Positions 40,208-60,933 of a stretch of DNA of 64,000 nucleotides are shown piece after piece. The position numbers and the translations under genes are program-made. The stretch is from Leptospiraceae bacterium. Its GTDB lineage: Bacteria; Spirochaetota; Leptospiria; Leptospirales; Leptospiraceae. Numbering within the stretch: position 1 is the first letter of the stretch; each line of letters opens with the position of its first letter. The DNA lies in the NCBI GenBank assembly GCA_015075105.1, contig JABTUZ010000002.1:406001-470000 (forward strand), given 5' to 3'. The notes beneath the pieces are model-generated. The model did no database searches. It saw only the letters and a program-made list of their open reading frames with translations, and was not told the origin of the DNA.

Positions 40208-40906
40208 ATGCGTCAAATTATTTTTAAAACTTTTTTTTTCATTCTTCTTTCATTTTTCTTTTTTAATTGTGCAACCTACTGGAATAACAGACGCAAAGAT
40301 TTTCAAGATATTTTTACTGTTGGTTTTGAAGCACCCGGGTTTGGAGCGGGTTTAAGAGTTGGTCCTGCATCTGTAGGTCTTGCCTTTTTAGGAGGGGAAA
40401 CCGCTCCTGGGAAGTTAGACAAAGGATCAGGAGTAGGTCTAAGGGGAGGTCGTTTCGGATTTTATAAATCACAACAATTGACTTTTTTTCTTTTAGGTGG
40501 GGAAACTTTTTATTCTGATGACGTTAAGTATGACTCAGATGGAAATCCTGAAATTGAAAAAGGTCTGCCTAAATTAAATAGCGAAAGAGACAACATAAAA
40601 AGTCACAAGTCCAGATACCTTACACTATATTTCGATCCTATAAAAGATCGAAGAAAAGAAAAGCGTGATGATGTTAAATTTGCTATAATCGACGAGCTTG
40701 CCAAAAAAACGGATGACCCCGCAATAAAAGCCTACCTTCCCAAAAGAGAAAAAAAACCTCACGGATACTCAAAATCGTATTTATTTCAAGTGGAAATCTA
40801 CGCTGGAATTTATTACGGACTAAGATTGGGTTTTAATTTTGCCGAGCTTGTAGATTTTATTCTTGGATTTACCACTATTGATATTTTAGATGATGACGTA
40901 AATTAG
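40208..40906 (+). CDS. Gly-rich lipoprotein of unknown function
   Basis: 232 residues. The signal peptide ends FFFFNC, a spirochaete-like lipobox. The mature region starts ATYWNNRRKDFQDIFTVG and then has strands rich in Gly (FEAPGFGAGLRVGPASVGLAFLGG; GVGLRGGRFGF), which resembles a small beta-barrel or sandwich. A Lys/Asp-rich insertion follows, and a C-terminal hydrophobic part (IYYGLRLGFNFAELVDFILG). No family name recognised. It is divergent from the WYL pair; the 119-base gap holds presumptive promoters. murA follows 45 bases downstream. Confidence 0.75.
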   Translation: MRQIIFKTFFFILLSFFFFNCATYWNNRRKDFQDIFTVGFEAPGFGAGLRVGPASVGLAFLGGETAPGKLDKGSGVGLRGGRFGFYKSQQLTFFLLGGETFYSDDVKYDSDGNPEIEKGLPKLNSERDNIKSHKSRYLTLYFDPIKDRRKEKRDDVKFAIIDELAKKTDDPAIKAYLPKREKKPHGYSKSYLFQVEIYAGIYYGLRLGFNFAELVDFILGFTTIDILDDDVN

Positions 40907-49436: not shown

Positions 49437-51644
49437 TTATTCAATAGTTATATTATTCCGCTTCATTCTATTTAATATCCATCTTTGCTGAATCTCTTCT
49501 CTCTGTAAATTCAAATCTTCGGCTAATTTGCCCCAAGCTATAGAAGTAGGATTTTGTTGCAACTCCCTCAAGATAATCTCACCTGCTTTCACAATATCTT
49601 TTTGATTAAGAAAAATTTTCGCTTTTTCGATTCGCAATGATTGTATTTCTGTGTCTCTTTTATTTGCACTGTAAAAACCAATAAGCTCATCAATCTTTTT
49701 CATAGCCTCCTCATAATTGTTCGTTGCAATAAGAACAGGAATCAATCGTTTAAGCATTTCTTCTCGATAAGAAGGCACCTCTGAAAGCATTTGAAAAATT
49801 GAAACATATTCTAATTCAGGTGAAATTTGCAAAATAGAATCGTAAAGTATTTTTAAATCATTAGCCTCTAATTTTCCAAATTGTGCTGCGATCATTGCAG
49901 ATTGAACCACTTTGGAATAGAATTTTTTAGAATAAAAGTATTCACAATAAGCGATATAGGAAACAAAAAAAATTTTTCTAACTTGTTCAGAATACTCTTT
50001 CAGTTCTTTGCTTGAAAATTTTTCGACAACTTCAAAAATTGAATGTATATCTGTGTAAGAGCTTTTATCTTTTAACTTTGGAAAAATATAGGCTTTTGTC
50101 CAAATTGCTGAATCTGCATCATACGAGTACTGAGATTTTTTAAAGTCAATATTGGAATATTTGGGATAATACATTTTAAACATAGGAAATTCTACAATGT
50201 TCAATTGCAATTTTTTGAAATTTTCCGTCTCAAAGATATTTTTACTGATTACTATGAATTGAATATTTTCACGAATCAACTCAGCTATATAAGAAGAATA
50301 TATATTTGTCTCGTTTTTAATCCCTAAGACTAAAGTTTTTTCTTGTATTTTATTTTTATCAGGCAATTTTTTTTTGTCTTCAAACGGTAGATCACTATTG
50401 TAGTATATGAATTTATTATTATCAAAAGGAATTTTAGACAACTGAAAAGGTATCAAACTTTTCTCTTCCTCTACTTGGTAAGAAATATTTTTAGAAAAAT
50501 CGAATGGAGAATGAAATAGAAATGAGAGTATTGAAGAAATGCACAATACTAGAATTCTATGGTATAACCCGATCATTTTATTTGTATATAGTGGAAACAA
50601 AAATAAAATTGCAAATACCACAACCGCAATATCTCTTATTCTATAGCTCGACGTTGATGGTAAAAAATAAATCAATACTACCGATATAAAAATTCCCACC
50701 ATTACAGAAATTGTAACGAATCTTTTACTTACTTTAAATGGTCGGAAAAAAGTCAAAAGTGCCAAATCCGTGAAAAATAAAAAGAATGAATACTCGTAAA
50801 ATCCTGATTGATTTGCAGTTAAAATTATATTCCCAATAAGAAATATCTCTGCTATTAGAAATTTTATTTTTACTTTTTCGTAAAGTACTCCTGAATACGA
50901 CATTACACTAAAAAGTAAACTTCCAAAAATAATCCCCGATAAAAATAACTCTGTTTTTTCAGTGGGCGTAACAAACACTAAAACTATATGGCTCGTGAAT
51001 AAGATTACGCCCGAATAGAAAAATGCACTATAGGAGTCACGATCATTTGATTTTTTCTTTTCAAAAAATATTCCATACTCATGGAAAAAAATACTCAATC
51101 CAATTTTTAAAGCCAATATATACAAAAAAGGGTATAAATAGTCTTTTGCATTAATATCATCTATTTTGCTAAAAACCGAATACAGAATTACTATTAATGA
51201 GCCTATCAAAAAGCTCCACATTCTAAAATTTTTAAATGAAGATAGTATGTATCCGACAACAAAGCAATTTAATGAATAAAATATTATAAAATGGCTTTTA
51301 TGAAAAATATAATCAATTACAAACTCATTTGAAGCAAAACTAAAATTCCAAACTATTTCTAAAATTAGAGAAATAACAATGGTCGCTTTAAATATCTTGG
51401 ATTGAGTAAATGGAATTAATTTTTCTACAAACAGACCAAAGATAAAAAAAGATAGAAAAATAATTCTCAATGTATAGAAATATACATCTCCTTCTTCAAC
51501 AGACTTTATCTCAAGGATACTTTCTTTGATTAAAAGAGTGAATAAAAATCCTATAGAAAGATTAATCACTAATCCCGGAAGAATCAACCAAACTATAAAT
51601 TCTTTATTGTGTTGATGGTGTCTCAAGGAATTGTCTGAAATCAT
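49437..51644 (-). CDS. Large membrane protein with C-terminal TPR-like region
   Basis: 735 residues. About 13 hydrophobic helices occupy the first ~390 residues (for example [54 protein letters not shown]). A soluble C-terminal part follows, containing paired helices with TPR character ([42 protein letters not shown]). No glycosyltransferase, O-antigen ligase or sulfatase motif recognised. It lies directly upstream of motA (one base), so they are co-transcribed, and a functional link to the motor is possible but unsupported. It is preceded by a strong intrinsic terminator, so it needs its own promoter. Confidence 0.78.
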
Positions 51645-51704
51645 AATACCTATGTATCCATTTTTTTATTTAATGGCACTATTATATTTTTACTTATGAT
51701 TTTT

Positions 51705-51744
51705 AAAAGAAAAAAAGCGGGACGGTTGGATGTATCCGCCCCGC
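51705..51744 (-). terminator. Strong intrinsic terminator on the minus strand
   Basis: On the minus strand GCGGGGCGG (51744-51736) pairs with CCGTCCCGC (51725-51717): a 9-bp G+C-rich stem with one G-T pair, followed by a run of T (51716 downward). It lies between carB and the large membrane-protein gene and should end either carB transcription or a separate small RNA (next entry). Confidence 0.9.
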
Positions 51745-51845
51745 ACTTCATTTGAAGAGAAAATTCGCAGTGTAGAGGGAAGCTATCAATTTGGGAGGTG
51801 ACAGATTTCCCCTCTATCTGTAATTTTCGTCAAATTGCCTGTATA
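51717..51845 (-). ncRNA. Candidate structured small RNA ending at the terminator
   Basis: On the minus strand, GAAAATT (51828-51822) pairs with AATTTTC (51765-51759), CAG with CTG inside that, and TAGAGGGGAA with TTCCCTCTA, giving a long hairpin with small internal loops across 51759-51828. The strong terminator follows directly. A competing hairpin, ACAGAT/ATCTGT, can form inside the same sequence. It lies in a 280-base gap without an ORF. A TTATAC element (near 51845-51850) could be a -10 box, but no good -35 is visible. I do not recognise an Rfam class; 6S, SRP and tmRNA features are not seen. A structured 3' UTR of carB is the alternative. Confidence 0.5.
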
Positions 51846-51924
51846 ACTTTAGCAGTTTTTTTAAAGAAATCGACATTTAATAGCAATCAACTCATGCAAA
51901 GCAAGGGACAGCTGGTTAGAAACG

Positions 51925-54900
51925 TCATAAATTTTTGTGAATTTCTTGAAGAGATCGAATCGAAAATCCTTTATTTTTCATCTCTGCTAATCCATTCACT
52001 AAGGCTTTTGTTGCAGAAGCTGAGGTAAAATACGGAACTTTATATTTAATTGCAGCCTGACGTATAGCATATGCATCATCACGAGTAACCCGCGACAGTG
52101 GAGTGTTTATGATTAAATTAATTTTTTTCTCTTTGATATAATCTACTACATTCGGGTAAGAGCCTTCGTGTAGCTTATTAATCATAGAAGAAAGAATTCC
52201 ATTGTCTGATAAAAATTTATGAGTGCCTTTGGTTGCAATTAGATTAAAACCCATCTTTGATAAAATTTCTATATACGGCAGCAAATCCGGTTTCGTTTTA
52301 TCATTTATGCTTACGAATGCAGTTCCGTTTGATGGAGGCTCTTCACCTGCCATAATTTGTGATTTTACAAACGCTTCCCCTGCACCCTCTGCAATTCCCA
52401 TAACCTCCCCGGTAGATCGCATCTCCGGACCAAGGATAGTATCAACTCCGGGAAATTTATTGAATGGAAGAACTGCTTCTTTAATATTGACTAAAGTAGG
52501 AATGATTTCTTTTTCTAATTCAAGCTCACTTAGATTCTTGCCAAGCATAATCATTGTAGCGTATTTAGCTATTGGTACTCCAATAGCTTTAGAAACAAAA
52601 GGAACTGTTCGAGACGCTCTTGGGTTTACTTCTAAAACATATAGCTCATCATCTTTTATTGCAAATTGAATATTAATTAGACCAACTACTTTCAACTCCA
52701 ACGCCAGTTTCTTGGTTGCCTGCCGAATATCTTTAAGAATCTTTTCTGATAGATTTTTGGGAGGAAGCATACAAGCCGAATCTCCACTGTGAATTCCAGC
52801 TTCTTCAATATGCTCCATAATTCCGGCAATAAAAACCTTGTTGCCATCGCATAACGCATCCACATCTACCTCAGTTGCATCCTCTAAAAACGAATCTATC
52901 AGAATAGGTCTTTCTTCAGAAATTTCTTCTGCGTTGTCCATATATTGATCTAAACTAGATTCTTCATTAATAATTGCCATTGCCCTTCCGCCAAGAACAT
53001 AGCTTGGTCGAACTAATACAGGATACGTTATACTCTTTGCAATTTTTCTTGCATCTTCTTTAGATACCGCCATCCCATTTTCTGGCTGCTTCAAAGAGAG
53101 TTTTTCTAAAACTTCCACAAATCGTTTTCTATCCTCTGCACGATCTATAGAATCGGTACTTGTTCCAAGAATAGGAATCCCTCTTTCTTCCAAAGACTTA
53201 GCTAATTTTAATGGAGTTTGTCCTCCAAACTGAATTATAACACCATCCGGTTTTTCATTTTCATAAATATTGACGACATCTTCAAGAGCAAGAGGCTCAA
53301 AATAAAGTCTATCCGAGGTATCATAGTCTGTAGAAACTGTTTCCGGATTAGAATTGACCATGATCGATTCAATTCCCATTTCTTGCAAAGCAAAAGAAGC
53401 GTGGCAACAACAATAGTCAAATTCAATTCCTTGACCAATTCTATTTGGACCGCCACCCAAAATTATTACAGACTTTTTTTCTGTTCGTATTGATTCATTT
53501 TCTTCATCATAGCTTGAATAGAAATAAGGTGTGTAAGCTTCAAATTCTCCCGCACAGGTATCTATTTGTTTGTACACCGGATTAATCTTTTGTTTTTTAA
53601 TTTCACTTTCTACTAATTTTTCATTCGATTGTAAAAGTTGTGATGCTTGAGTTTTAATTTTACTAACTGTAGATTTGGCGTTTAAAATTTCGCTAATCTC
53701 ATTCTCACATAATAGATAAGCTAATTGTTTATTTGAAAATCCGGCTTGCTTCATTTTCTTAAGGATAGAAAACTTTTTAATTTTAAATTCTTTTTCTAAA
53801 ACATCTAAGTCCTTCATTTGATTAACAAACCAAGGATCGATTCCTGTAATTTGGGAAATTTCTTCTACAGAAAAATTTTCATTAATAGCAACCTTAATAT
53901 AAAAAATTCTTTTATCGGTGGGTCGCTTTATAAGAGAGGTGATAGTCTCTCGCCTTTTCTCTAAAGGAATCTTTTTCATTTCTAAAAGCTCTTTTAAATA
54001 TCCGTCAGACCCAAACCCAAAGCGATCATTTTCTAATGATCTAAGAGCTTTTTGAAAACTTTCTTTAAATGTTCTGCCAATTGCCATTGCTTCACCAACG
54101 GCTTTCATCTGCACACCAAGAGTGTCATCAGATCCGGAAAATTTTTCAAATGCAAATCTTGGAATTTTTGTTACTACATAATCTATTGATGGTTCGTAAC
54201 TTGCTGGAGTTTCTTTGGTTATATCATTTTTGATTTCGTCTAACGTATAACCTATAGATAAAAGTGCGGCAATTTTTGCTATCGGAAACCCGGTAGCCTT
54301 TGAAGCAAGTGCACTAGATCTGGACACTCTCGGATTCATTTCTATAACGAGCACTTCCCCATTTTTAGGATTCACTGCAAACTGAATATTTGAACCACCC
54401 GTCTCCACTCCAATCTCACGAATAATTTTTAGTGACATATCTCGCATAGTTTGGTATTGTTTATCGGTAAGAGTTTGTTGAGGTGCAACCGTAATCGAAT
54501 CTCCTGTGTGAACTCCCATAGGATCAATATTCTCAATCGAACAAATTATAACAACGTTATCAGCTAAATCTCTCATCACTTCCAGCTCATACTCTTTCCA
54601 ACCAATTACAGATTCTTCAACTAAAACCTGATTGATCGGAGAAGCGCTAAGTCCTTTGCCAACTACTTCCTCAAATTCACTTTCATTATCAATAAATCCT
54701 CCACCTGTTCCACCTAACGTAAATGCAGGACGAATAATAATTGGAAGACCAATTTCTGATTTTATTTTTTTAGCTTCTTCGAGATTGGAAGCAAGCCCGG
54801 ATCGAGGGACTTTCATACCGATAGCTGTCATAGCTTCCTTAAAAAGTTCTCTGTCTTCTGCCTTTTTGATTGCGTCAACCTGAGCACCTATCAAACGAAC

Positions 54901-55236
54901 ATTGTATTTACTTAAAATTCCCTCCTTACTCAAATTCATCGCAAGATTCAAAGCAGTCTGACCACCGACTGTAGGAAGTATTGCATCCGGTTTTTCTTTT
55001 TCTATAATTTTTGCTAGAATTGAAACTGTTAAAGGTTCAATATAAGTCGCATCCGCAAGAGTGGGGTCTGTCATAATTGTTGCCGGATTAGAGTTGACTA
55101 ATATTATTCTAATCCCTTTTTCTTTAAGGGCTTTTGCGGCTTGTGTCCCGGAATAATCAAACTCACACGCTTGACCAATCACTATCGGGCCTGAGCCTAA
55201 AATTAAAACAGATGAAATATCTTTTCTTTGTGGCAT
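51925..55236 (-). CDS. carB: Carbamoyl-phosphate synthase large subunit
   Basis: 1103 residues, slightly above the usual ~1070. Two homologous ATP-grasp halves: [22 protein letters not shown] with [14 protein letters not shown] in the first, and [22 protein letters not shown] with [14 protein letters not shown] in the second. Each half has a metal site ([40 protein letters not shown]). The C-terminal MGS-like allosteric domain is [18 protein letters not shown]...[18 protein letters not shown]. It makes carbamoyl phosphate for pyrimidines and arginine with the CarA subunit, which is not in the window. Structured RNA and a terminator follow 3'. Confidence 0.97.
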
Positions 55237-60516: not shown

Positions 60517-60933
60517 TTATCGAATTGTTTGAACTTTGTCTATTATCTGCTTTGCTTTTTCTAATACTTTTTCTCTTTTGATTGGTTTGCCGAGAAAATC
60601 CATAGCACCGTTGTCTAAAAGACTTTTCATTACAGCCGGAGTTGTTTCTTCCGTGATAAATAAAATTTTAGGAATCATTCCCATAGATTTTATTTCCCAA
60701 AATGTTGCGTAACCGTCCATAACGGGTAAATTCAATTCCATCGTAATTAAATTTACTGTTTTGTTTTTATTGTATAATTCAATAAGCTCTTTCCCTGTTT
60801 CAGCAAAGCCAACAATTTTATATTCTTCTGATTCAAAAATTTGCTGAAGTTGTTTTGCCTGAAACTTGGAGCCTTCTGCGATGATTACGGTATAAGGTCT
60901 TCCGCTACTTGAAATCCCCTGATGTCTGCTCAT
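60517..60933 (-). CDS. Stand-alone receiver-domain protein lacking the usual phosphorylation site
   Basis: 138 residues, a CheY-like fold with a basic/Ser-rich lead of 14 residues. The site of phosphorylation reads [12 protein letters not shown]: Glu66 is four residues before the Pro where Asp stands in CheY (D57). The Asp pair after beta-1 is Ala19-Glu20 (VIIAEGS versus VVDDS). The Thr (ITEET, Thr94) and Lys (GKPI, Lys116) are kept. Glu at this position may mimic the phosphorylated state, so it could be constitutively active or signal by another route. It overlaps leuB by 4 bases. No kinase is nearby. Confidence 0.88.

Follow-up and report, generated by a model that had tools for sequence, protein, structure and literature searches.

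The genome analysed comprises 3.42 Mb in four contigs, and the window, the whole stretch of 64,000 nucleotides under study, corresponds to positions 406001-470000 of its contig C2. Within it a gap of 280 nt (51645-51924) separates two genes on the minus strand. The first, which we take to be carB from the call in the first-pass annotation and from recognition of the sequence, encodes the large subunit of carbamoyl-phosphate synthase. It is matched in all seven other Leptospiraceae genomes with 73-79% identity over the matched part and is preceded by a sulfatase-family gene, not by carA. The second encodes a membrane-protein-like product of 735 residues, for which no Pfam family scores over its cut-off. 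Relatives of this protein, with 24-31% identity, occur in each of the seven other Leptospiraceae and in none of 53 more distant genomes. A MotA/TolQ/ExbB-family gene comes after it.

The gap had been described as free of ORFs. Its length is as given and no ORF in it reaches 80 aa, but five ORFs of at least 20 aa, ranging from 20 to 76 aa, overlap it. Among the short ORFs, one of 20 codons (MSISLKKLLKLYRQFDENYR, 51814-51876, minus strand) ends in the 5′ arm of a hairpin; by eye it has no clear ribosome-binding site and it probably arose by chance. The structured element in the gap, for which no strand had been stated, belongs to the minus strand. The features, in the direction of transcription, are as follows.

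51925-55236, minus strand: ORF of 1103 aa, presumed carB, carbamoyl-phosphate synthase large subunit
51846-51854, minus strand: candidate extended -10 box TGC-TAAAGT with a start at about 51839, at the hairpin base; no good -35
51750-51835, minus strand: long interrupted hairpin of five stacked helices (predicted fold)
51830-51835/51750-51755, minus strand: outer helix of the hairpin (predicted fold)
51822-51828/51759-51765, minus strand: first stacked block (predicted fold)
51818-51820/51768-51770, minus strand: second stacked block (predicted fold)
51808-51816/51773-51781, minus strand: third stacked block (predicted fold)
51799-51804/51783-51788, minus strand: inner helix (predicted fold)
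51789-51798, minus strand: apical loop CCUCCCAAAU (ensemble prediction: unpaired)
51710-51744, minus strand: intrinsic terminator with a 9-bp G-C-rich stem (-16.7 kcal/mol), a 10-nt loop and U7 (predicted fold)
51681-51686, minus strand: TATAAT, probable -10 box of the 735-aa gene, behind the terminator; the best -35 has 4/6 matches at a spacing of 15
49437-51644, minus strand: ORF of 735 aa, the next gene, membrane-protein-like

A long hairpin with three stacked blocks had been reported at 51759-51828; it is present, and an additional inner helix and outer helix extend it. The 131-nt unit running from 51838 to 51708 on the minus strand folds with a predicted energy of -46.8 kcal/mol (z -5.88), a value reached by none of 200 shuffled sequences. 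The same holds for the hairpin alone on this strand (-23.7 kcal/mol, z -5.35, 0 of 200). On the plus strand the 131-nt stretch gives -41.2 kcal/mol (z -2.83), and two of 200 shuffles are as good. When non-overlapping 130-nt segments of the window are ranked by GC-corrected energy the 131-nt unit is placed second, behind 40339-40468 on the plus strand, a segment that lies within the coding ORF 40208-40906.

For comparison with the genome at large a sample of 464 kb was assembled from 20 stretches of 20 kb and the window, together carrying 403 ORFs that are 100 aa or longer. The hairpin structure is beyond chance; taken alone, as an 88-nt segment, the hairpin is not exceptional and ranks 14th by GC-corrected energy among the noncoding 88-nt segments of the sample. 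Several of the noncoding segments that outrank it sit in a repeat-rich stretch elsewhere on the contig (C2:300001-320000). That stretch carries paralogous segments of up to 681 bases matching at 93%. The 7-mers GCCTAAC/GTTAGGC occur there 13 times and strike us as reminiscent of integron attC cores.

The terminator stem (51717-51744) starts 5 nt past the outer helix of the hairpin, 180 nt from the carB stop codon, and is G-C-rich and followed directly by the U7 run (51710-51716). The strong intrinsic terminator that had been reported right after the hairpin is thus borne out, and it is general knowledge that terminators of this type work. The tool used for promoter and terminator prediction called no terminator here; its loop limit is 8, and the loop is 10 nt. 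Terminator-like hairpins of -8 kcal/mol or lower number 233 in the 464-kb sample, of which 36 are noncoding. Set against the 403 ORFs, only 15 of these 36 follow an ORF of the same direction at a distance of up to 300 nt, so that strong intrinsic terminators are uncommon at the ends of genes in the sample. The one described here is stronger than the other 35, with the runners-up close (-16.4, -16.1 and -15.6 kcal/mol), and the 95-nt segment upstream of it has the lowest fold energy of the set, -28.4 kcal/mol, the next being -25.0 kcal/mol.

Might the element be initiated separately, and does its loop have partners? The TGC-TAAAGT box is a weak candidate because hexamers at least as good are found at 6% of window positions. 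RepG of Helicobacter and LhrC of Listeria are small RNAs in which an open C-rich loop pairs with G-rich ribosome-binding sites. The element is like these in that CCUCCC is predicted to be unpaired in the loop that caps a stable hairpin, a likeness of loop character. We liken the loop CCUCCCAAAU to the anti-Shine-Dalgarno sequence of 16S rRNA, and it could pair with Shine-Dalgarno sequences. Against 54 gene starts in the window the best duplexes have energies of -10.9 and -10.0 kcal/mol, which, being computed with no shuffled control for chance, are no evidence of targets. The former involves a site some 35 nt ahead of the ORF 60517-60933, and the latter a GGAGG placed as a Shine-Dalgarno sequence for the ORF at 1838. 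With the start of carB itself the loop reaches -2.7 kcal/mol, which falls short of self-pairing.

A DNA search of the genome itself and 60 relatives returned, beyond the locus, only short and weak matches, and phages and plasmids gave no match to the element. The covariance search of related genomes that had been suggested, seeded with the element, found the locus alone at a meaningful score: the single-sequence model scored it at 166.9 bits across eight Leptospiraceae genomes, with one other match of 17.1 bits (E 3.5). Within the window the same model gave a 25.2-bit match on the plus strand at 51628-51753, overlapping the palindromic terminator. No conservation therefore backs a function, there being no relative in 60 genomes by DNA or in the seven other Leptospiraceae by the structure model. 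A search with the C-terminal part of carB gave, among 80 of 168 relatives, five close matches from Leptospiraceae/Leptospirales with 75-81% identity and no congener; the genus Leptospira is absent from these close matches, and records near the window's genome were possibly left out. In the seven other Leptospiraceae genomes the arrangement downstream of carB is different. One of the seven has a terminator-like hairpin within 500 nt behind carB (-10.6 kcal/mol), located within a reading frame, and the other six have none of -6 kcal/mol or lower within that distance. As far as is visible by these comparisons, the element appears restricted to its lineage. A literature search found no report naming it.

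An Rfam scan had also been proposed. At gathering score the window contains one tRNA and nothing else, and a scan of 401 nt at a loose E-value produced eight chance-level matches, the best being the L20 leader (17.9 bits; cut-off 58.7). The Rfam model for 6S RNA (RF00013) exceeds its cut-off in 14 of 31 genomes searched and in none of the eight Leptospiraceae; in the genome itself there is no match at E ≤ 10. A clade model built from 13 same-order and same-class 6S sequences attains at most 3.6 bits in the region of the element, and its 11 matches of 10.6-14 bits across the eight Leptospiraceae genomes are not convincing. In these eight, 6S RNA is lost or strongly diverged. The SRP RNA models (RF00169, RF01854) likewise exceed their cut-offs in none of the eight, and a direct search for the SRP domain IV motif gave one match among them, in genome G005, and none in the genome itself. 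RNase P RNA, used as a method control, was over cut-off in seven of the eight, the one missed being a genome of 75% completeness. The Ffh M domain (PF02978) was found in none of the eight genomes, with 14 of 14 controls positive, so SRP RNA is not to be expected. Some bacteria, Leptospira for example, lack genes for SRP components according to the available part of PMC10066597; SRP loss, in print there for Leptospira, is here broadened to other genera of the Leptospiraceae.

These searches bear on one alternative, that the element is a housekeeping RNA, 6S or SRP RNA, in a copy so diverged that the Rfam models overlook it. That neither RNA scores over its cut-off in the eight Leptospiraceae genomes speaks for it, but the clade 6S model is all but silent in the region, and for SRP RNA the motif is absent here, the Ffh M domain is missing from the family genomes and the genes are reported as lacking in Leptospira (PMC10066597, in the part available). 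From the outcome of the model, motif and Ffh searches both identities were rejected; the element is neither 6S nor SRP RNA, and the chance that this view is mistaken is close to negligible.

On the basis of these data we see about an even chance that the carB transcription unit ends, on the minus strand, in a noncoding RNA module with an intrinsic terminator, and that this module yields a stable sRNA. The carB message probably ends with the element, which is perhaps a small regulatory RNA as well; the sRNA may either derive from the 3′ UTR or be initiated at the hairpin base. This reading builds on what is directly established, namely the sequence and a predicted fold that is in statistical excess and rare in the genome. 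The stretch behind the gene is noncoding, structured and terminated. The reading is supported by the disparity between the strands (z -5.88 on the minus, -2.83 on the plus), by a terminator and a 95-nt upstream fold that both head the list of 36, and by the lack of a comparable terminator behind carB in the seven other Leptospiraceae genomes. Further support comes from a single dominant fold with an open loop and from the TGC-TAAAGT box at the hairpin base. Counting against it are the lack of a relative, the weakness of that box, the lack of a clear loop target and the 14th rank of the hairpin alone. RNA polymerase would leave carB, or initiate at the weak promoter at about 51839, transcribe the long hairpin and halt at the U tract (51716-51710). 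The resulting piece of 125-130 nt, comprising hairpin and terminator, would be stable and accumulate as a small RNA, in which the fixed loop CCUCCCAAAU might serve as an antisense seed against the ribosome-binding sites of some mRNAs. A base-pairing function, taken by itself, we regard as doubtful.

There is a precedent in position. In Vibrio cholerae, as described in the available part of PMC7398697, the 3′ UTR of carAB yields an autoregulatory sRNA, CarZ, which is made by RNase E, is bound by Hfq and pairs with the carA 5′ UTR in the carAB operon. The element resembles CarZ in location: it sits in the 3′ UTR, on the strand of carB, and might be set free from the transcript of that gene. Unlike the CarZ case, a sulfatase-family gene and not carA precedes carB, and the loop does not pair with the carB start; the likeness is one of position. 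The intergenic and 3′ UTR sRNAs of L. interrogans and L. borgpetersenii, as they appear in the available parts of PMC5243855 and PMC13224635, share with the element their size range, intergenic place and want of an Rfam relative, although they belong to a genus other than that of the host. The element has a typical Rho-independent terminator, whereas in L. interrogans few sRNAs (16) are given as having one in the available part of PMC5243855. The available text of PMC13224635 has no occurrence of carB.

The main alternative is a plain 3′ UTR of carB, in which the terminator ends the message and the hairpin protects against exonucleases, with neither a separate RNA nor a trans role. We consider this quite possible, at somewhat below an even chance. 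carB is read in the same direction and stops 180 nt short of the terminator, no pairing of the loop with the carB start is seen, and the failure to find a relative is what an unconstrained 3′ UTR would predict. However, a separate long hairpin exceeds the needs of a terminator, and no other of the 36 noncoding candidates has so stable a fold upstream. Of the three readings first put forward, an independent small RNA and a processed carB 3′ UTR both remain and the regulatory leader is disfavoured. Such a leader, of the attenuator or riboswitch type, would control the 735-aa gene by condition-dependent opening of the terminator to admit transcription. The terminator does precede a gene read in the same direction, with 65 nt between it and the start codon, and the 20-aa ORF (51814-51876) might encode a leader peptide. 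It had been proposed that competing pairings could switch, but in folding of growing transcripts the competing hairpin (GAUAGA/UCUGUC, about -6 kcal/mol) occurs only in truncated transcripts, when the RNA reaches 51800-51788, and is displaced by the long hairpin by 51776-51770, after which growth mainly extends the structure. In the full RNA the unpaired probability is near 0 for the helices and near 1 for the loop, and one fold dominates. No anti-terminator appears in the series, and the predicted folds, computed without ligand, include no two exclusive structures of which one removes the terminator. This, together with the perfect TATAAT -10 hexamer for the 735-aa gene past the terminator, disfavours a leader or riboswitch. 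Moreover, in the stretches examined from the seven other Leptospiraceae, relatives of the 735-aa gene are not adjacent to carB, and no Rfam leader or riboswitch scores over its cut-off. We hold this explanation to be very unlikely.

It is more improbable still that the functional RNA is made from the plus strand and has its end at a weaker hairpin of terminator type, whose T run lies at 51857-51863. The plus strand does fold (z -2.68 and -2.83), a short stem stands ahead of the T run and there is a promoter-like site at 51673-51700. The fold is, however, much poorer than that of the minus strand, the promoter-like sites in the region number five against 5.0 expected from shuffles, and no plus-strand gene lies immediately upstream.

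To return to the terminated sRNA module, its most far-reaching form would be a lineage-restricted sRNA, a rigid hairpin with an anti-Shine-Dalgarno loop (CCUCCC), that tunes the translation of a group of mRNAs whose ribosome-binding sites are G-rich, matching it to the transcription of carB (pyrimidine and arginine), in a family where neither SRP nor 6S RNA could be found. This extended version strikes us as very unlikely. As a candidate sRNA or terminator the element is good but ordinary, and it resembles ordinary bacterial small RNAs. If it does accumulate, it would provide a well-defined small-RNA candidate in a little-studied lineage of the Leptospiraceae, one that is easy to probe because of its clear 3′ end and accessible loop. 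If it is a terminator only, it would represent a natural terminator of high strength in a family where intrinsic terminators are uncommon.
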